Translations under genes and position numbers: made by a program
The notes under the pieces: model-generated
Database searches by the model: none
What the model was told of the DNA's origin: nothing
What the model saw: only the letters and a program-made list of their open reading frames with translations
Part shown: positions 11,650 to 23,635 of the stretch, piece after piece
Position numbering within the stretch: position 1 is the first letter of the stretch
Layout of the letters: every line of letters begins with the position of its first letter
Source: Butyrivibrio sp. UBA3740
Lineage (GTDB): Bacteria > Bacillota > Clostridia > Lachnospirales > Lachnospiraceae
DNA length: 23,852 nucleotides
Direction: 5' to 3'
NCBI GenBank assembly: GCA_002372465.1
Contig: DFGW01000193.1
Location: 1-23,852, forward strand

Positions 11650-12687
11650 TTAATTTACTTTGCGATTGCCCGCCAGAACTTCCCTGTAATCCTCCAGGTT
11701 CTTCCTAAGAAGTGTAGGGATTTCCAGCTCATATGGGCACTTGGAAAGGCATGCGCCGCACCCGATGCAGTCCTCGATCCTCTCCATCTCTTTCTGCCAG
11801 TATTCTGAAAGCCAGCTCTCGCTGGGGGCTCTTCTGAGCATCAGGGACATACGATTGCAGTTGTTGATCTGAATTCCAACGGTACAAGGCATGCAATATC
11901 CGCAGCCACGGCAGAATTCACCCATAAGCTCTTTTCTCTCGGCTTCAACAAAGGCCTCGATTTCTGCGTCATAGGCCGGAGTATTGTCCATGTAGGAAAG
12001 CCACTCATCAAGCTCAGACTCGCGCTGGATTCCCCAGATGGGCACAGCTCCGTCAAACTGGCTCACATAGGCCATGGCTGCCTTGGAATTGGTGATAAGT
12101 CCGCCTGCAAGACCCTTCATGCAGATAAAACCCACGTTATTGGCGTTGGCAAGCCTTACAAGTTCTGCCTCCTGATCTGAAGCAAGATAGCTGAAGGGGT
12201 ACTGAACAGTCTCATATAGTCCAGATTCTATAAGTTCTCTGGCTACTCCCAGCTTATGGGCTGTTCCTCCGATGTGACGGATCTTGCCCTGTTCTTTGGC
12301 CTTAAGCATGCATTCATACATTCCTGTGCCATCTCCGGGTTTCCAGCACTGCCCCATGAGGTGGAACTGGTATATATCGATATAATCGGTCTTTAAATTG
12401 TTCAGGGAAGTATCCAGATGCTGCCAGAATTCCTCCGGTGTCTTGGCTCCGGTCTTGGTGGCGATAATTATCTCATCTCTTTTGACATAGCCGTCACCAA
12501 AAGCAGCGCCCACCTTCACTTCACTGTCGGTATAAGCCCTCGCTGTGTCAAAAAAGCGCATTCCGCCCTCATAAGCTTTTCTAAGAAGCTTAACTGCCTC
12601 CTCCAATGAAACTCTCTGAACAGGCAGCGCTCCAAAACCGTTCTGCGGAACCGTGATCCCGGTACGTCCAAGTGTAACATTCTTCAT
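11650..12687 (-). CDS. Aldo/keto reductase with C-terminal two-cluster ferredoxin domain
   Basis: Predicted oxidoreductase of 345 residues. The aldo/keto reductase barrel carries the usual tetrad D47, Y52, K78 and H109 (FDTARAYTD, TKTG, IYQFHLM). The C-terminal domain has two cysteine groups for 4Fe-4S clusters: C259-x2-C262-x2-C265-x2-C268 and C307-x2-C310-x2-C313-x3-C317-P. This architecture is common in anaerobes and suggests electron exchange with ferredoxin rather than only NAD(P)H; the substrate cannot be read from sequence. I choose the ATG at 12687, which has a near-perfect AAAGGAGG, over a TTG eight codons upstream that overlaps the lipoprotein gene. The lipoprotein stop lies 13 bases upstream, so the two are probably cotranscribed. 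Confidence 0.93.
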   Translation of the reverse strand: MKNVTLGRTGITVPQNGFGALPVQRVSLEEAVKLLRKAYEGGMRFFDTARAYTDSEVKVGAAFGDGYVKRDEIIIATKTGAKTPEEFWQHLDTSLNNLKTDYIDIYQFHLMGQCWKPGDGTGMYECMLKAKEQGKIRHIGGTAHKLGVARELIESGLYETVQYPFSYLASDQEAELVRLANANNVGFICMKGLAGGLITNSKAAMAYVSQFDGAVPIWGIQRESELDEWLSYMDNTPAYDAEIEAFVEAERKELMGEFCRGCGYCMPCTVGIQINNCNRMSLMLRRAPSESWLSEYWQKEMERIEDCIGCGACLSKCPYELEIPTLLRKNLEDYREVLAGNRKVN

Positions 12688-12700
12688 AAGATACCTCCTT

Positions 12701-13456
12701 TTAGTTGCCAAGTTGTTTCATGATATCTTCCACCGTCAGCTCTTTTCCCGTCCTGTCCTTGTAGAAATCCTCAAAGCTCTTGCCCTGATCTTCGGGATTC
12801 AAATCTACGTCCTTTGCATGTGACTTAAAAGAGCTATCGTCTGAAAGAAGTGCGTATGCAATATTGTGCTGAAGCCATTCATAGGCCATGTCCTCAGGTG
12901 TCCTGTAGGAAACCATGTCAACGCCATGTATCTGGTGCTCCTCTATGAGGGCCTGGCATATGATGGTTATATCTGCCTCATTGGTTATCTTGTAGGAGTC
13001 ATATATCTTCCATTTGTCAGGTGTATAGGCAGCGCTAAAGGTCTCACCATCATACTGGAAGGTGTAGCTTTGTCCGTTTCCGTCAGTATCAGTAAGTCCG
13101 ATATCTTCCGGGGATATGAGAATCCCTGCTTCGCCCGAAACTCCTTCTGTAGCTTTCTCCATGAGCTCCTGTCCCGACATGGCGCTTCCGTCTTCGGCTG
13201 CTGACATTATTTCATCCCGGACATCCTTGATGTGGTCCTCTGCCCCGGAGGTATGCTCGCTGATTGTTTCCGCAGCAGCGGATATCTCTTCCACTGCAGT
13301 GGATACCGAGTCCTTCAGACTTGCTTCCAGCTCTTCCCTGGTCTCGGATATAGCCTCCTTCTGATCCTCAGTAAGGCTTATTTTCCCGCAGCCTGTTAGG
13401 GTTGTAAATATAGCAGTCATGCATGCCGCCATAATAACAACTGTTCTCTTTTTCAT
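12701..13456 (-). CDS. Lipoprotein of unknown function
   Basis: Predicted lipoprotein of 251 residues. The start is the ATG at 13456 with AGAGGAG six bases upstream. The N-terminus is a lipoprotein signal: MKKR, a hydrophobic run and the lipobox LTGC with C23 as the lipid-carrying residue. Residues about 28-75 are a Glu/Ala/Ser-rich amphipathic helix, probably a coiled coil. The rest (about 115-251) is a small alpha/beta region containing SYTFQYDGETFSAAYTPDKW and an IHGVDMVSYRTPEDMAYEW stretch. I recognise no family. It is the first gene of a five-gene run ending with sfsA, but the partners (AKR, HflX, radical SAM, SfsA) do not point to a shared pathway. Confidence 0.85.
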   Translation of the reverse strand: MKKRTVVIMAACMTAIFTTLTGCGKISLTEDQKEAISETREELEASLKDSVSTAVEEISAAAETISEHTSGAEDHIKDVRDEIMSAAEDGSAMSGQELMEKATEGVSGEAGILISPEDIGLTDTDGNGQSYTFQYDGETFSAAYTPDKWKIYDSYKITNEADITIICQALIEEHQIHGVDMVSYRTPEDMAYEWLQHNIAYALLSDDSSFKSHAKDVDLNPEDQGKSFEDFYKDRTGKELTVEDIMKQLGN

Positions 13457-17036: not shown

Positions 17037-18047
17037 TCAGATTTTCAAAAATACGCTCGGTGCATAGATCAAATCGTACAGTCTTATTTTTTTATTTATT
17101 CTTAGCATTTTAATGATAGCACTGATCAAAAGAGGAATAAGTACGCCCAAGGTCACCGTAATTATAAAACCCAAAGCATAATTACTTATGTGCAGGGCAT
17201 TAAGCATAAATCCTATAGGTCGAGTGATAAACATATGCAGGGTATAAATCTCCAGACTAAATCTCCCAATAACATTGAAGAAATCCACTTTTATACAATA
17301 GTCATGGAACCATACGATTAAGCAGTAAGTCATCACCAGTGCACAAACAAAGCGCCAAAAACCAGAAGACAAAATGCCAGGTAATGAATATCGGCTGAAT
17401 GCTACAATTGAGCACACGATAAAACTGCAGCACTCTACGAATCTATTTACACTATTCAGTTTAGGATCATCATTCTGATAAACTCCCAGCAAAAAGAAGA
17501 ATCCATATTTTAGTACATAGAACAAGCCATATCCATCAATAGCTTCAAAAAAAGAAATATAGCAAAAAAGTGAAATAATCCCCCAAGTGCATATCAATAT
17601 TATTATATTGAATCTAAGCAAAAACGGAACAATCAGATACAAGACAATAAGTACGTACAAATACCAATATGGCGTTATTGGCTTAATGGGTATCAGAAGA
17701 ATGTCCCAAAAAGAGGCTTCTTTGATTACATGTCCCGTTGATAGGATCTTCAGAAGTATCTTTACCACACTAAAGATAGTATATATCCAAACAAAATTTA
17801 ATACGTGCGTACTAAGTCTTTTCTTATCTGTTACATGCTTTTCTTTGTCTAGGTAAGCCCGTTTGAACACATATCCACTGATCCAAAAAAACAGAGGCAT
17901 GTGGAAAGCATAGATAAGATCAAAAAAATTCCAGGCATATTTCGCATGATCATAAATACCATTTAATTCAAACCCATCAATAGCATGCCCAATGACAACC
18001 AAGATGATAGCAAAACCTTTTATGTCATCTATCCATTTTTCCCGCAT
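17037..18047 (-). CDS. Acyltransferase family 3 membrane protein
   Basis: Integral membrane O-acyltransferase (PF01757), 336 residues with about ten hydrophobic segments. Family signatures are WIDDIKGFAIILVVIGHA at 5-22 with H21, and FHMPLFFWISGYVF at 48-61 with H49. A late ending YTLHMFITRP is also typical. Such proteins move acetyl or related groups onto sugars of surface polysaccharides at the membrane. The gene starts 13 bases after the small ferredoxin gene with GAGG before the ATG. It is the last clear gene of the polysaccharide operon; decoration of the repeat unit is inferred from context. Confidence 0.92.
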   Translation of the reverse strand: MREKWIDDIKGFAIILVVIGHAIDGFELNGIYDHAKYAWNFFDLIYAFHMPLFFWISGYVFKRAYLDKEKHVTDKKRLSTHVLNFVWIYTIFSVVKILLKILSTGHVIKEASFWDILLIPIKPITPYWYLYVLIVLYLIVPFLLRFNIIILICTWGIISLFCYISFFEAIDGYGLFYVLKYGFFFLLGVYQNDDPKLNSVNRFVECCSFIVCSIVAFSRYSLPGILSSGFWRFVCALVMTYCLIVWFHDYCIKVDFFNVIGRFSLEIYTLHMFITRPIGFMLNALHISNYALGFIITVTLGVLIPLLISAIIKMLRINKKIRLYDLIYAPSVFLKI

Positions 18048-18060
18048 TTATCGCCCTCAA

Positions 18061-18258
18061 TCATTGACATTCATGTTTCTTTACCGGACATACTGACATG
18101 CAACTGTGGCATCCAACACATAACTTTTCGTCTATCATGGGATATAAGAAACCTTCCTCATCAGGTGTCATTGTGATAGCATTCGAAGAGCATATCTGCT
18201 GGCATGCAGAACATCCGCAACAATCATATTTAGTTTCAAACAGAACCGGTATTGGCAT
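18061..18258 (-). CDS. Stand-alone two-cluster (2x[4Fe-4S]) ferredoxin, matching the missing N-terminal domain of an FrhB-type protein
   Basis: Protein of 65 residues consisting only of a bacterial ferredoxin domain. Cluster motifs are C13-x2-C16-x2-C19-x3-C23 and C47-x2-C50-x2-C53-x3-C57-P. The connecting sequence DEEGFLYPMIDEKLC is the form seen at the N-terminus of FrhB-type proteins in glycan loci, not that of a general ferredoxin. The stop falls just after CPVKKHECQ, where the linker to the FrhB catalytic domain would normally start. AGGAG lies about 10 bases before the ATG, so this looks like a functional gene rather than debris. It probably supplies electrons to the FrhB-type protein encoded at 19672-20640; that pairing is inference. 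Confidence 0.85.
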   Translation of the reverse strand: MPIPVLFETKYDCCGCSACQQICSSNAITMTPDEEGFLYPMIDEKLCVGCHSCMSVCPVKKHECQ

Positions 18259-18292
18259 TTTTCAACTCTCCTGCCATCTAAAAATCAAAAGT

Positions 18293-19672
18293 CTATTTAG
18301 CTATTATTCTGAAAAGCAACTTTCTGCTTGAGATCATCGCGCCAAGGAATATTATCAGTCTTATCAAGAAAGCCGGTAATCCGTCCGTATAAAAGAAAAC
18401 AACCTGAAAAACAATTAAAGCTGTGTACAAAAAAAGTTTCTTCTTATCATATTTGAGAGTTATAAGTTTTCTGACATCAATTACCCTATAGATAAATGTC
18501 ACAAGATAACCGATTAACGTTGCCACAGCTGCCCCCATGATTCCGAAACGTGGAATAAAAAACAAATTTAAGCATATATTTGTCACAGAACCAGATAAAG
18601 AGGAGTAAAAAGCACCTTTAGTATATTTATATGTACTGTATAATGTTCCCACATTGCCTGCCAGGGCATGTACCATCACTGACACAATAAGAATTGCCAG
18701 GCAAGTCCAGGCATTATGGTATGCTTTATCAAAGAGAGCAATGATCATCTGTTTGCCAATTACCAGCAGCCCCAAAACACCTACCGACAAAAAGACAAAA
18801 TAATTATTAAATACCTCAGAATAGATCGCTCCGGCTTTCTCCTTTTCCTTCGATGTCTCTATTGAGGTGGTCTGCCAGGCCTGATAAAAAACCCTTTCAA
18901 ATGCACTGAGAATCGCCGGTATTTTATTGGAAACCGCATAAATACCTGCAGCTCCTGCGCCAAGAGTCATTCCTATGATATATCTGTCTGAGGCATTCAT
19001 GATCCACCACATCGCTGCAGTCGGTATCAGCGGAATACAATAACACAAAAAATCTGCGGCATATTTTTTTGAAATATTATCAACAGTGAGAAATCCCAGC
19101 ACCCCTGACTTGATTGTCAGATATACGCAAGAGCACAATAGTCCAGTGAAATATGCCAATGCCCACCCTTTGAATCCAAGTTTTAAACAAACCACCAGGA
19201 CAATACTGGCCACAGAAAGAGCGATTGCATTAATGATTCCGCTTAATCCGAATACCTTTATTTCCTTTAAGCCTCTTAAAAACTGCGAAAGTATCATATT
19301 TATAGCTGTCAGAGCCACGAAGCTTGAAGTAATAGCAATCTCCCATTTCCCAAATACAGCAGCGATGACAGCTGTCAAAATACAAACCAGAAGTCCCGGG
19401 AAGCTGATCCATAAAGACGTACAGACCACATTTCTTTTATCATAGGTTTCATCATTAGCATATCGAAAAGTAGCTTCATAAATATCAAGGCAAATAAAAG
19501 GAACAAACAGACCTATCGAAGCCGTTATGATATCTGAAATACCATATGCTTCCGGAGAGAGGAAAAAAGAATATAAAGGCGCAAGCAAAAATATCATCGC
19601 TTTGCTTCCAATATTGGAGACAGCGATAATGATTGTGTTCTTTTTTAACTCTTTATACCTTTCAGTACTCAT
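18293..19672 (-). CDS. Wzx-type polysaccharide flippase (MATE/MOP superfamily)
   Basis: Multi-pass membrane protein of 459 residues with about 12-14 hydrophobic segments, as in Wzx/PST transporters. It opens with KKNTIIIAVSNIGSKAMIFLLAPLYSFFLSPEAYG, a classic start for this family, followed by a charged loop and ATFRYANDE. The family moves lipid-linked oligosaccharide units across the cytoplasmic membrane. The ATG at 19672 shares its A with the TAA stop of the FrhB-type gene (TAATG), pointing to translational coupling. An alternative upstream TTG/GTG start would only lengthen the overlap. The substrate repeat unit cannot be read from the sequence. Confidence 0.92.
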   Translation of the reverse strand: MSTERYKELKKNTIIIAVSNIGSKAMIFLLAPLYSFFLSPEAYGISDIITASIGLFVPFICLDIYEATFRYANDETYDKRNVVCTSLWISFPGLLVCILTAVIAAVFGKWEIAITSSFVALTAINMILSQFLRGLKEIKVFGLSGIINAIALSVASIVLVVCLKLGFKGWALAYFTGLLCSCVYLTIKSGVLGFLTVDNISKKYAADFLCYCIPLIPTAAMWWIMNASDRYIIGMTLGAGAAGIYAVSNKIPAILSAFERVFYQAWQTTSIETSKEKEKAGAIYSEVFNNYFVFLSVGVLGLLVIGKQMIIALFDKAYHNAWTCLAILIVSVMVHALAGNVGTLYSTYKYTKGAFYSSLSGSVTNICLNLFFIPRFGIMGAAVATLIGYLVTFIYRVIDVRKLITLKYDKKKLFLYTALIVFQVVFFYTDGLPAFLIRLIIFLGAMISSRKLLFRIIAK

Positions 19673-20640
19673 TACTTTTCTTTTCCTACACCCCTCTTTA
19701 TGTAATACCATAACCAATCTATCACTGTAGGAGAGTAATACTTTTTAACCGAATAATAGCCCCCGTATTCTTTTACTGCTTTAAAAAATCTGTCTCTTTT
19801 TTTGCCGGGTGTAACACTTCGAGTAGCTGTCCAATTTCCCTTCATCAAGAGTTCTGCATCATATTCTCTGAAAGAAAGACCATCTTTTATATCATCAAAG
19901 ATTTCAAGAGCTTTAGGATTATGAAGCAATAATGCGGACAGGCCCTTATCATCATTTAATTCCTTATCAGCCTCTCCAATGCCCCAACAATCAGAAATCG
20001 TAAAGTCGCTCTTTCTCTCCAGTCCTTTGAAACGGCAACGGTAGCAAGAAGGTCTTATATTGTCGTACTGCAGATAGGAACGCATAAAAGGGTCCATTAT
20101 CCCGCGTCTGCGATATGTTCTATTCCCGGCTTCAATATTTACATACCACTTCTTCCAGCCTCTAAGCTTCTGTTTAAAAACAACCTTTCTTATTGGGCCA
20201 TTCTCTTTACTAAATGTTCTTATATTATCATTCCAGATTCCTGGAGATGCCACACCATGACAGACAAAATCCATAGTATAAAGTTTTTCGCTTAAGCCAA
20301 ATGATCCGATATAGGATAATAGCCCCTCGACCTGACAAGGCGTTCCAACAAAAAGAACAGTTTCCCCTGAGTCCAGATCTCTTTTAACTTTAAAGAATGT
20401 ATCTCCAAGATTACTTTGAGGATATTTTGAACCACGAAGCTTACCAAGATCACTGATACTTCTGCAACGACAATGGCTTACCCTGTAGTCATTATCAAAT
20501 GAAGCACCATATACCACTGCAGCATGTCTTGTAATCAAATACGCTGCTATGGAAGTGAATATTCCGCCCGATGTACTTTCAATTCTTATATCCAGATCAT
20601 CGTTATAGCAGGCATATGCTATCGGCCACTTTTCACCCAT
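19672..20640 (-). CDS. FrhB/FdhB-type Coenzyme F420 hydrogenase beta-subunit-like protein lacking its ferredoxin domain
   Basis: Flavin/Fe-S family protein of 322 residues (FrhB_FdhB N and C domains, PF04422/PF04432). Visible motifs are ESTSGGIF at 21-28, SKYPQS at 71-76, VGTPCQVEGL at 98-107, FVCHGVASPGIW at 125-136, C199-x2-C202 and SDFTISDCWGIG at 211-222. Relatives in glycan loci usually carry an N-terminal two-cluster ferredoxin of about 60 residues; here the protein begins directly at the linker (MGEKWPIAYACYND). The start at 20640 has GGGAG upstream and overlaps the acetyltransferase stop as ATGGGTGA. The family sits beside pyruvyl transferases in many capsule loci; a reductive sugar-modification role is inferred, and F420 use in this organism is unlikely. 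Confidence 0.9.
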   Translation of the reverse strand: MGEKWPIAYACYNDDLDIRIESTSGGIFTSIAAYLITRHAAVVYGASFDNDYRVSHCRCRSISDLGKLRGSKYPQSNLGDTFFKVKRDLDSGETVLFVGTPCQVEGLLSYIGSFGLSEKLYTMDFVCHGVASPGIWNDNIRTFSKENGPIRKVVFKQKLRGWKKWYVNIEAGNRTYRRRGIMDPFMRSYLQYDNIRPSCYRCRFKGLERKSDFTISDCWGIGEADKELNDDKGLSALLLHNPKALEIFDDIKDGLSFREYDAELLMKGNWTATRSVTPGKKRDRFFKAVKEYGGYYSVKKYYSPTVIDWLWYYIKRGVGKEK

Positions 20641-21238
20641 ACATTTCTCCCAAATGTCCCTGAGTCGCATTCTCCTTATGATGGATAACAGCTGGATTTC
20701 CAATTACCACAGAATGACTAGGCACATCAAAATTCACAAAGGTATTGGGGGCAATTAGTACATCATCACCTATTGTTATATTGCCTACAACTGTGGATCC
20801 GGTCCTTATGCAGACCCTGTTTCCAAAGGTAGGCACTCCCTTTCTCTTGCCTCTGATATCACGTCCTATGGTAACTCCATGAGTCAGCATGATTTCATTA
20901 CCAAACTTCACATTTCCATTGACCACGATCCTTCCCCAGTGACCTATGATCAGTCCTTCTCCTATAGTATGGTTCCCCATGAAATCTATTCCTGTTTTAC
21001 GTGCAAATCGCTTTAGCTTAATAGCATAAAAATAACGCCAGATGGTATCATAATTAGCCTGATACTTTCTGTATAGCAATACAGCCTTGTACTCATATTC
21101 TCGTTTCTTTGAATCAGGTAATCTATCCACATACCCTCTGAACGAAGCATTAAATACCTCATCCTTTTTTATCATTTCACTGTATTTTGAAAAATTGTAT
21201 TTATAAAAATGTAGTTTAAAAAAGTCCTGTTTATTCAA
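20633..21238 (-). CDS. Serine acetyltransferase-like hexapeptide-repeat O-acetyltransferase
   Basis: Protein of 201 residues. An alpha-helical N-terminal part (1-82) is followed by a left-handed beta-helix of hexapeptide repeats from about 83 to 190 (TIGEGLIIGHWGRI, IMLTHGVTIG, NITIGDDVLIAPN). Catalytic-type histidines are H100 and H120. The end ...SVVIGNPAVIHH is typical of sugar or serine acetyltransferases. In this operon acetylation of a sugar is likelier than cysteine synthesis. The start is TTG at 21238 with GGGGG six bases upstream, overlapping the pyruvyl transferase stop (TTGAATAA); the next ATG, at codon 22, has no ribosome binding site. Confidence 0.88.
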   Translation of the reverse strand: MNKQDFFKLHFYKYNFSKYSEMIKKDEVFNASFRGYVDRLPDSKKREYEYKAVLLYRKYQANYDTIWRYFYAIKLKRFARKTGIDFMGNHTIGEGLIIGHWGRIVVNGNVKFGNEIMLTHGVTIGRDIRGKRKGVPTFGNRVCIRTGSTVVGNITIGDDVLIAPNTFVNFDVPSHSVVIGNPAVIHHKENATQGHLGEMYG

Positions 21239-22364
21239 CTTGTTCCCCCAACGCTTCTTTCAGGTATTCCAGACTGTCTGATCTTTTTTCTTCAAGTATG
21301 GTACTCACTTCTGCATAATCTATCTCTGACATTTTTAGGTTTTGTAGTTCATCGGGCTCTTCAACAGCCCTGTCCGAAAGCCCCAGTAAGTTTAATACGT
21401 CTCTTTTCCTATGCTCAGATCCGCCTTTACCGCAGAAGGATACAAACTCCTTATGAAAATTTATAGCCAAAATTGTGCCATGATAAGAATCCGTCACTAC
21501 ACACTCAGCATTGTATAAGGCTTCCAAAAACTCTATAGGGCCATAATCTCTCATAATATCTGCACACTCTTTGGGGTAGCTTATATCACATGCCGGCGAT
21601 ACTACACGAATCCTGGCCTTGCGGTCCTTCGCAAACCTTATCACATTTTCTCTTCTTTTTAGCTGTTCATTGTAGCCGGCCAGAGAATAATAGAGTATAT
21701 ATGGTTCATTTTTCTTTTCCTTTAGATCCAGTTTCCGTATCCACTGATCTTTGCTTAATAAAAGTGTAGGATCAAGAACCATACTTACTTCCATGTTGCT
21801 CAGCCGGCTAAACAAATCTATGGAACTTTTTTCTCTAAAAGATACATAGTCAAAATCTTCTATCTTAGGTAAAATACTTCTTATCTCATCTTCCTTCATA
21901 GATCCAAAGGAAGAAGCATAGGAAACTTTCTTTCCGCCAAATCCCACTAACAGGTATGGGTCCATATACTTCCAGTCAACATACCTTAATTCCCAGGATC
22001 TTTTATTCCAGACCTGATCACTGCCGCTGATTATAGTGTCATATAAATCATAAAAATCCTTAGTATCCTCCAGCATGCTATACTCACCAACCGGTTTAAG
22101 ATAAGCACTAATAAATGATTCAAATCTGTCCTGACGTTTTTTTCTCTGCACATGATATGGAATACGTAAAAAATCTTTAGCAAAATTCTTAATGCCACAC
22201 TTTGTTCTATACAGTGCATAGTATGCCTTTTGGGCATCAGGTCGGTAATTGATTATGTTTGCAGAATATCCATTGTCCAAAAGTGTCTGACATAAGGCAT
22301 AGGCCTGGAGTTCTGACCCAAAGTTATAAGCTGCATGGTAAGTAATAATCCCAACTTTTTTCAA
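21231..22364 (-). CDS. Polysaccharide pyruvyl transferase family protein
   Basis: Protein of 377 residues matching PF04230. It begins with the family-typical KKVGIITYHAAYNFGSELQAYAL. ISGSDQVWN at about 112-120, SYASSFG and VVTDSYHGTILAINF near residue 290-305 are also conserved. Such enzymes transfer pyruvate ketals from phosphoenolpyruvate to sugars of surface polymers, although many family members are uncharacterised. The start is a TTG whose last bases form the TGA stop of the upstream ligase gene (TTGA overlap), with GGGGG eight bases upstream; the family alignment at residue 1 supports this start. The gene lies directly before the acetyltransferase and FrhB-type genes, a neighbourhood often seen for this family. 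Confidence 0.94.
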   Translation of the reverse strand: MKKVGIITYHAAYNFGSELQAYALCQTLLDNGYSANIINYRPDAQKAYYALYRTKCGIKNFAKDFLRIPYHVQRKKRQDRFESFISAYLKPVGEYSMLEDTKDFYDLYDTIISGSDQVWNKRSWELRYVDWKYMDPYLLVGFGGKKVSYASSFGSMKEDEIRSILPKIEDFDYVSFREKSSIDLFSRLSNMEVSMVLDPTLLLSKDQWIRKLDLKEKKNEPYILYYSLAGYNEQLKRRENVIRFAKDRKARIRVVSPACDISYPKECADIMRDYGPIEFLEALYNAECVVTDSYHGTILAINFHKEFVSFCGKGGSEHRKRDVLNLLGLSDRAVEEPDELQNLKMSEIDYAEVSTILEEKRSDSLEYLKEALGEQVE

Positions 22365-23635
22365 CTAACATACCCCCGGTCAAAAGATAATTCTATGCTT
22401 TCCCTGTTTAGGCACTCCGAATAAAAATACGCGATCAGGATCAGCATAATGAATGTGTACTGAATAACCGAAAAGAATAACATTACAAGCATTATTAAAG
22501 CAAAAATCATTCTCCTGCTGTCTCCGTTTTTCCAGGATTTCACGATGTAAAACCAAAAAGACAGTAAATAAATGCCTGTAAGAATCAATCCGCATTGCCC
22601 CATCAAAGAGCCTATTCCAGAAGCAGATCCTCCTGTCCCCATGTTAGCTCTTGCTCTATATGCGGGCATATACTTTAAATAGGCTTTAAAACTCCTATAT
22701 CCGCATCCGTAAAGTGGATTATCTTTCATAACCTTATATCCTTCAACTATACTAAGAAGTCTTCCTGACCAGCTTAGAGTTGAAGTGGCTTTCTGCATAA
22801 AAATAGCCACAAAAGATATTACTCTGACAATCAGAATCGCAAATCCCAAAATGAGTTTGACCCAAAACTGGTTTCTGGATTTCACCCTCAACAACATAAA
22901 ATCCACAACGTAAACAGTGATTCCCAACAACAGACCAGTAGTAGAAAATGTTGTAATAATCGCAATGTAAAAGATTACAACCTTGGCTTTACTTCTGGCC
23001 CCAACAAAAAGCTCCAATGTCATGGCAATGACAAGTGCCGCGCTGTACATAGGTGCCTCTGCAAAAAAGCCAATATTTCTTACTATTCTGGCACCAAAGA
23101 AATATTCAACCTGCCTCTCAACATAAACATAGGCATAAACAGGATATCTAAATGGATTCCCCCAATTTACATAGAAATAAGTTGTTGGTTTCAATAAATG
23201 TGCTTGTGATGCCAGTATCCAAAAAATAAGAGAAACTATCGCAATCACATACATCAGGTTTGTATACTTTTTGAAAATAGAATATGGGCAATTACTATCA
23301 AATAAAAAAACAAGCATTAAGAGGGGGAAAGTAACAAAAAACTTTACAACAAAGCCAAGCGGAGATGGACTAAATCTGCCATTGTTAAGATAGAGCATTC
23401 CAATGGCAACAAAATAGAATCCCAGAAACAGGATACAACGCCATAAATTGCCCAAAGAAACTCTGGCCTTATTAAGCTTAACTAGTAATAGCATCCCCAA
23501 CCCCACAGCAATATAAGGCGTAAAAGACGTAAAAGAAGAGCCTATTATCTTTGAATACACTGTGTTGCAATCAAGTATGGCTAAAAGAGCAATTCCATAT
23601 TCAAGTACATCAACAAGTTTAATTTTACTTTTCAT
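22361..23635 (-). CDS. O-antigen ligase/polymerase (Wzy-like) membrane protein
   Basis: Polytopic membrane protein of 424 residues with about ten to eleven hydrophobic segments. A hydrophilic loop at about 290-345 (WSGRLLSIVEGYKVMKDNPLYGCGYRSF) carries the family-typical pattern seen in O-antigen ligases and Wzy polymerases. The family joins oligosaccharide units on the outside of the cytoplasmic membrane. Overall similarity between members is low, so ligase versus polymerase cannot be decided; with a Wzx-type flippase in the same operon, polymerase is favoured. The ATG has only a weak GGAT upstream. The stop overlaps the TTG start of the next gene. Confidence 0.85.
   Translation of the reverse strand: MKSKIKLVDVLEYGIALLAILDCNTVYSKIIGSSFTSFTPYIAVGLGMLLLVKLNKARVSLGNLWRCILFLGFYFVAIGMLYLNNGRFSPSPLGFVVKFFVTFPLLMLVFLFDSNCPYSIFKKYTNLMYVIAIVSLIFWILASQAHLLKPTTYFYVNWGNPFRYPVYAYVYVERQVEYFFGARIVRNIGFFAEAPMYSAALVIAMTLELFVGARSKAKVVIFYIAIITTFSTTGLLLGITVYVVDFMLLRVKSRNQFWVKLILGFAILIVRVISFVAIFMQKATSTLSWSGRLLSIVEGYKVMKDNPLYGCGYRSFKAYLKYMPAYRARANMGTGGSASGIGSLMGQCGLILTGIYLLSFWFYIVKSWKNGDSRRMIFALIMLVMLFFSVIQYTFIMLILIAYFYSECLNRESIELSFDRGYVS

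Follow-up and report, generated by a model that had tools for sequence, protein, structure and literature searches.

A free ferredoxin that probably serves an FrhB-type flavoprotein in trans in a Butyrivibrio polysaccharide operon

The window analysed here is an entire contig of 23,852 bases (DFGW01000193.1) from Butyrivibrio sp. UBA3740, whose 3.19 Mb genome is 77% complete. Its minus strand carries a polysaccharide operon encoding, in order, a Wzy-like polymerase, a PS_pyruv_trans protein, a hexapeptide acetyltransferase, an FrhB-type protein, a Wzx flippase, a 65-amino-acid ferredoxin (Fd) and a membrane acyltransferase. As judged from sequence, the 65-amino-acid protein is likely to be a dedicated free Fd that supplies electrons in trans to the FrhB-type flavoprotein of the same operon, which has no Fd domain of its own. 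This pairing in trans is well supported by association, and the FrhB-type protein is probably a redox enzyme modifying surface sugars. Below, FrhB-type proteins without their own Fd domain are called unfused, and those with an Fd domain N-terminal on the FrhB chain are called N-fused.

Results

Two intact genes, for an FrhB-type protein and a free ferredoxin

The two genes and their main sites are:

19672..20640, minus strand: FrhB-type protein without Fd domain, 322 amino acids (PF04422 and PF04432)
20335..20337, minus strand: FrhB Cys102, probable ligand of FrhB's own [4Fe-4S] cluster (cysteine in 139 of 139 aligned FrhB domains)
20260..20262, minus strand: FrhB Cys127, probable cluster ligand (139 of 139)
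20044..20046, minus strand: FrhB Cys199, probable cluster ligand (139 of 139)
20035..20037, minus strand: FrhB Cys202, probable cluster ligand (139 of 139)
18061..18258, minus strand: free 2[4Fe-4S] ferredoxin, 65 amino acids, P-x-L-[YF] type (open reading frame, Fer4_7, alignment, motif)
18238..18249, minus strand: P-V-L-F (P-x-L-[YF]) motif, Fd residues 4-7, starting nine residues before the first cysteine (alignment, motif search)
18190..18222, minus strand: first CxxCxxCxxxC motif, C13-C23 (sequence, alignment)
18088..18120, minus strand: second CxxCxxCxxxC motif, C47-C57 (sequence, alignment)

The FrhB-type protein matches PF04422 at residues 9-78 (29.7 bits, cut-off 22) and PF04432 at residues 93-255 (65.1 bits, cut-off 23.3), and with both families above cut-off it is a member of the FrhB/FdhB family. 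Its own cluster site is probably intact, because all four cysteines listed are invariant across the aligned domains. No Fer4 family matched it, either in the 322-residue reading or in the longest, 343-residue reading, and it starts seven residues before a conserved A-x-A-x-Y-N stretch, at the position of the linker in fused relatives, as a first-pass annotation of this DNA had described. The 65-amino-acid protein matches Fer4_7 at residues 13-60 (41.5 bits against a cut-off of 27) as well as other Fer4 families, carries the connector DEEGFLYPMIDE and is a bacterial 2[4Fe-4S] Fd by its two CxxCxxCxxxC motifs and a dicluster profile match; among the NCBIfam matches listed, all 25 fell below cut-off. 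That 18061-18258 encodes a ferredoxin downstream of FrhB and beyond wzx is thus confirmed by an intact frame, the Fer4_7 match and the intervening wzx gene.

Both open reading frames are intact on the minus strand, and the bases ahead of their starts read AGGAGAGTTGAAAA-ATG for Fd and GGGAGAAATGT-ATG for FrhB. A frameshift or assembly break in the window was ruled out, as the annotation had argued, because both genes are intact and their order is impossible by frameshift. A one-off assembly fault is counted unlikely because Fd and FrhB are each recorded on two contigs in the database, the longest of 42,702 bases. The 77%-complete genome contains a single PF04432 match, this FrhB, and no full-length FrhB was found elsewhere in it.

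The annotation had also suggested that the two genes are halves of one rearranged protein, and this is not supported. A database search returned 1514 FrhB relatives at E <= 1e-3, the best 120 of which were inspected; the best 98 of the 1514 (FrhB's own entry included, and some of them fragments) have no Fer4 annotation either, and most are about 320 amino acids long. The nearest Fer4-annotated relatives of the window FrhB among the matches listed, P0099 and P0101, are 46 and 48% identical to it. Short FrhBs are an established form, free Fds make up a group marked by its motif that may depart from the FrhB tree, and a history in which a single protein was split and its parts reversed is probably wrong.

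The C-termini of FrhBs, fused or not, mostly form a basic tail of about 40 residues. Its median net charge in the main groups is +7 to +8, and it may contact the membrane. Such a tail was considered as a speciality of unfused FrhBs and rejected, since 29 unfused and 98 fused rows are similar in tail length (p 0.96) and charge (p 0.80).

Free ferredoxins recur beside unfused FrhBs

FrhB loci were drawn from public genomes (80 of 111 kept), genomes of the window's family and a few class-level genomes, leaving out two duplicates and loci only about 3-4 kb long. From the family, 40 stretches were hand-chosen, 20 mainly because they had short frames and 20 mainly because they had long ones, and the counts below are associations, not frequencies. 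The resulting 123 loci hold 89 N-fused rows and 9 PS_pyruv_trans-Fd-FrhB rows (by a local profile). A free Fd lies downstream in 25 rows and upstream in 5; in 2 rows the Fd is C-terminal on FrhB and in 1 it is part of the PS_pyruv_trans protein, while 8 rows lack an Fd and 4 are fragments. A motif-bearing free Fd is present in 23 of the 36 loci with an unfused FrhB versus 0 of the 87 loci with only N-fused FrhBs. Apparently broken fused genes in L069, L128 and L132 (among the ‘upstream’ rows) and in L125 at 12189 (‘downstream’) were excluded from trees and motif counts and remain within the 36-locus count. Because free relatives of its Fd recur with FrhBs that lack an Fd domain, the window pairing is more than chance, and these recurrent pairs support the earlier proposal of an Fd acting in trans on an FrhB-type protein in a glycan operon.

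The Fd gene directly follows FrhB in L004, L005, L006, L023, L029, L035, L048, L119-L122, L125, L126 and L127; in the window wzx intervenes, in L002 both wzx and an epimerase gene (PF01370), and in L186 a gene for a 471-amino-acid protein, flippase-like by eye, and in L117 the Fd gene is 5.2 kb from FrhB. Fd is upstream of FrhB in L143 and in L184, which belongs to the window's own genus, and a rule that Fd always lies downstream was dropped on account of these two loci. The reversed gene order noted at first is therefore real in the window and only one of several orders among the loci. Four other genomes of the genus gave no Fd-profile match at 1e-20. In L116 (10610-13958) the unfused FrhB is separated from its Fd by two genes that, by eye, resemble GlmM and GlmS. 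Tandem pairs of unfused FrhBs accompany a single free Fd in L004 (8945-10951), L005 (5970-7971) and L125 (3537-5559), where one Fd donor may serve two reductases.

The P-x-L-[YF] motif marks the detached Fds. A search for P-x-[LI]-[YF] within 14 residues ahead of the first cysteine found it in 23 of the 28 small free Fds, in both C-fused Fds, in the single Fd fused to PS_pyruv_trans and in 1 of 99 N-fused Fds; this sole motif-bearing N-fused Fd (L187) adjoins an unfused FrhB. Of the five small Fds without the motif, three are pieces of fused genes that seem to be broken and two are generic ferredoxins, and with these set aside the motif is present in 23 of 23 copies. By an Fd profile built partly from the free Fds, the window's included, the two generic ferredoxins score 24 and 30 bits, the 23 motif-bearing free Fds at least 86 and N-fused domains up to 89. 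The motif also occurs in all 122 database free Fds examined, although the query sequences themselves contained it. The window Fd fits the group defined here by a small frame, two CxxCxxCxxxC motifs, the P-x-L-[YF] motif and an unfused FrhB in the locus. Its profile relatives are free Fds beside unfused FrhBs, followed by the Fd domains of Fd-FrhB fusions, and no better fit to another ferredoxin family emerged. The motif may help the free Fd to dock.

Trees favour one ferredoxin lineage serving several FrhB lineages

In a quick tree of 113 rows, which included 45 of the 89 N-fused rows drawn at random, the unfused FrhBs are spread over several positions. A careful tree of 68 rows, with near-copies dropped and with 28 unfused FrhBs (among them four database short forms known without loci), requires eight changes, at least five of them forced, and recovers unfused FrhBs as one clade in 0% of 200 bootstrap trees. 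A single clade of unfused FrhBs is rejected (p-AU 7e-6, at a cost of 241.8 log-likelihood units). For the Fds, 26 free or displaced and 49 N-fused sequences were compared over 52 columns from the first cysteine onward, which excludes the motif, and a single clade of free Fds is not rejected (p-AU 0.43, cost 2.4 log-likelihood units). To gauge the power of so few columns, the test was also applied to one 52-column FrhB slice chosen in advance, and a single clade is still rejected (p-AU 0.0039, 87.6 log units). Because a single clade is rejected for the FrhBs even on 52 columns and is not rejected for the free Fds, these results favour one Fd lineage serving several FrhB lineages over repeated fission; this lineage would have replaced the built-in N-terminal domain several times.

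Repeated fission, in which each unfused FrhB shed its own N-terminal domain as a free gene that later moved and gained the motif convergently, is the strongest competitor and is unlikely. It is consistent with the scatter of unfused FrhBs among fused ones, with the three changes in the free-Fd tree, none of whose bootstrap trees has a single clade, and with the apparently broken Fd-FrhB genes in L069, L128, L132 and L125. Against it stand the costs of the clade constraint, 2.4 units for free Fds versus 241.8 for unfused FrhBs and 87.6 on 52 columns, and the motif, which is in all 23 free copies kept and in 1 of 99 N-terminal domains and is missing from the broken fused genes.

Fusions tie PS_pyruv_trans to the pair

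The other genes of the operon are:

22361..23635, minus strand: Wzy-like polymerase (Wzy_C 29 bits, slightly under the cut-off of 31.7)
21231..22364, minus strand: PS_pyruv_trans (PF04230) protein, the usual FrhB neighbour or fusion partner (117.7 bits, cut-off 25.3)
20633..21238, minus strand: hexapeptide acetyltransferase (EpsC/CysE-like), between the PS_pyruv_trans and FrhB genes (strong NCBIfam matches, below cut-off)
18293..19672, minus strand: Wzx-type flippase between FrhB and Fd, its start overlapping the FrhB stop (PF01943)
17037..18047, minus strand: membrane acyltransferase (Acyl_transf_3), the gene after Fd (Pfam match)

The FrhB stop and the wzx start overlap in TAATG, and gaps of 34 and 13 bases separate wzx from the Fd start and Fd from the acyltransferase gene. 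Outside the operon, at 11650-12711, an aldo/keto-reductase-like protein has ferredoxin-type cysteine motifs near its C-terminus (by eye) and looks ordinary.

By a local profile, PS_pyruv_trans lies within 5 kb of FrhB on the same strand in 67 of the 92 loci with 5 kb on both FrhB sides. This profile missed a divergent branch, as in L012, where the neighbour matches PF04230 at 1e-31. The profile left 25 loci unmatched; a Pfam rescan of 20 neighbours, selected by eye in 18 of them, gave matches in 13 loci, which with L012 adds 14 and places PS_pyruv_trans near FrhB in 81 of 92. Of the other 11 loci, L031, L053, L147, L151 and L153 gave no PF04230 match among the neighbours scanned, and L007, L013, L014, L049, L072 and L143 lay outside the rescan. 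A PDB sequence search with the window PS_pyruv_trans protein returned 21 hits with a best E of 0.23 and no relative.

The three domains are also fused in several orders: Fd-FrhB, PS_pyruv_trans-Fd-FrhB and Fd-FrhB-PS_pyruv_trans (L062). L023 has a PS_pyruv_trans-FrhB fusion and a free Fd, and L019 an Fd-PS_pyruv_trans fusion with an unfused FrhB as the next gene. In L028 and L044 the Fd is at the C-terminus of FrhB and is of the same type as the free ones, and L028 is sister to two loci with Fd as the next gene (SH-aLRT 100).

Alternatively, FrhB might draw electrons from elsewhere and the Fd might serve a different operon protein, for instance the PS_pyruv_trans homologue. The Fd fused to PS_pyruv_trans in L019 is compatible with that arrangement, as is L133, which has an unfused FrhB and a PS_pyruv_trans gene and no such Fd in its genome. 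We consider it improbable in view of the unfused FrhB next to the L019 fusion, the two FrhB-Fd fusion proteins and the lack of a free Fd in all 87 loci with only N-fused FrhBs, where PS_pyruv_trans is nonetheless usual.

Searching from the ferredoxin

Since the other loci had been found through FrhB, a search was also made from the Fd side with a profile, A3, built from these same free Fds. Across 397 genomes of the window's family it gave 14 matches in frames of up to 90 amino acids at E <= 1e-20, most of them already known from the FrhB search, and each of the 14 has an unfused FrhB in its locus, no farther than 5.2 kb; a 146-amino-acid frame, from a broken fused gene, was kept out of this count. 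Four small-frame matches were found in 391 genomes of the class. For three of these (the window, G614 and G688) the distance to an unfused FrhB is no more than 1.8 kb; the fourth (G569) is truncated by a contig end. The large-frame class matches with retrieved loci are all Fd-FrhB proteins.

That the 65-amino-acid protein is a general or unrelated ferredoxin in the operon by chance, as the commonness of short ferredoxins and a single-sequence search yielding one relative besides itself might suggest, is very improbable given the 14 of 14 family matches beside unfused FrhBs, large-frame class matches that, where loci were retrieved, are all Fd-FrhB proteins and a profile search reporting 3879 proteins of similar length at E <= 1e-3, the weaker of which may be other ferredoxins.

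Unfused FrhBs without a matching ferredoxin

Several points weigh against a dedicated Fd acting in trans, or against the history proposed for it. For eight of the 41 rows of unfused FrhBs, the examined stretch contains no Fd. Some of these are at or near contig ends (L003, whose stretch ends 353 bases past FrhB; L123, with two rows; L129, 3.3 kb from the end), and that of L187 adjoins a fused paralogue whose Fd carries the motif. The genomes of L123 (G243, 99% complete), L129 (G042, 95%), L133 (G208, 94%), L151 (G353) and L153 (G014), all 94-99% complete, gave no free-Fd-profile match at E <= 1e-10 anywhere. The unfused FrhB of L133 (9377-10423) has PS_pyruv_trans and flippase neighbours and no matching Fd genome-wide, so its Fd partner, and perhaps those of L123 and L129, is missing, different or unneeded. 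In the Fd-first search at most 15 candidates were scored per genome, so free Fds can have been missed. The Fd tree is poorly resolved, recovering free Fds as a single clade in 0% of 200 bootstrap trees, and quick-tree position partly guided a choice by hand of which fused rows went into the careful trees. Finally, an AF2 model of the natural fusion in L028 reached a pTM of 0.80, which speaks for the fold only, with FrhB making up most of the chain, and is no test of docking.

The FrhBs of L151 (9654-10658) and L153 (9226-10263) form a distant clade of FrhBs without Fd beside a BCCT transporter or a Cys/Met PLP enzyme; their neighbours are not of polysaccharide type, and they probably represent a different reductase system.

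Discussion

Some FrhB-family members have an N-terminal ferredoxin domain, and in Frh the ferredoxin domain is on FrhG, according to the consulted part of one study (PMC3591093, eLife 2013). Electron transfer in trans from the free Fd to FrhB is proposed because the family otherwise has this domain on the same chain or on FrhG. Electrons would pass from the two clusters of the Fd to the FrhB cluster, on to the FrhB flavin and then to a substrate, and the reductase so fed would act with the PS_pyruv_trans protein in polysaccharide synthesis. The detached Fd names a likely electron donor and a small complex, and the fusions link the three genes to a common task. Should the motif prove to be a docking element, it would offer a simple and portable means of connecting one ferredoxin to different reductases.

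The substrate is approached here by analogy. With less confidence than for the pairing, we suggest that PS_pyruv_trans, Fd and FrhB form one unit making a reduced, pyruvate-derived polysaccharide decoration. Formation of a pyruvate ketal needs no redox step; a reduced product is suggested because a redox partner is tied to PS_pyruv_trans all the same. Lactyl ethers occur in Butyrivibrio polysaccharide, and our search of open-licence papers did not return them. One example of such chemistry, offered as a guess, would be a reductive step that turns an enolpyruvyl ether into a lactyl (1-carboxyethyl) ether. This step is chemically plausible because BciB, an FrhB-type enzyme, reduces a vinyl group with electrons from reduced ferredoxin, as the part of the report consulted describes (PMC4836224).

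The most far-reaching version is doubtful: an exchangeable Fd lineage with a docking motif would repeatedly have replaced the built-in FrhB domain, and PS_pyruv_trans, Fd and FrhB would make up an undescribed ferredoxin-driven machine. By reducing an enolpyruvyl or related group, this machine would produce lactyl-ether sugars or similar ones, in a two-step process on surface polysaccharides that resembles MurA/MurB with ferredoxin in place of NADPH. In the consulted parts of open-licence papers, we found no function for FrhB-type proteins encoded next to PS_pyruv_trans. The consulted part of a pyruvylation review (PMC6801904) contains none of the terms F420, ferredoxin, reductase and lactyl, and that of a Klebsiella capsule survey mentions one coenzyme F420 hydrogenase among cps genes and gives it no role (PMC4616057).

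Among known systems, the closest likeness is to the Fd-FrhB proteins of polysaccharide loci, which share the FrhB N and C domains and a two-cluster Fd with a DEEGF-type connector; unlike these, the window has its Fd as a separate gene with P-x-L-[YF], a motif found in 1 of 99 N-terminal domains. In contrast to FrhB with FrhG in the F420-reducing hydrogenase, the partner here is a 65-amino-acid Fd in a polysaccharide operon with no hydrogenase subunit: hydrogenase families had no match among the scanned operon proteins, and the 65-amino-acid partner has Fer4 matches only. FdhB of the methanogen formate dehydrogenase complex (7bkb_E) belongs to archaeal formate metabolism, whereas the window FrhB is in a glycan operon. 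The 8-vinyl reductase BciB, as presented in the consulted part of its report (PMC4836224), is similar in being an FrhB-type FAD/Fe-S enzyme fed by reduced ferredoxin; its substrate is chlorophyll, unlike the glycan setting of the window FrhB.

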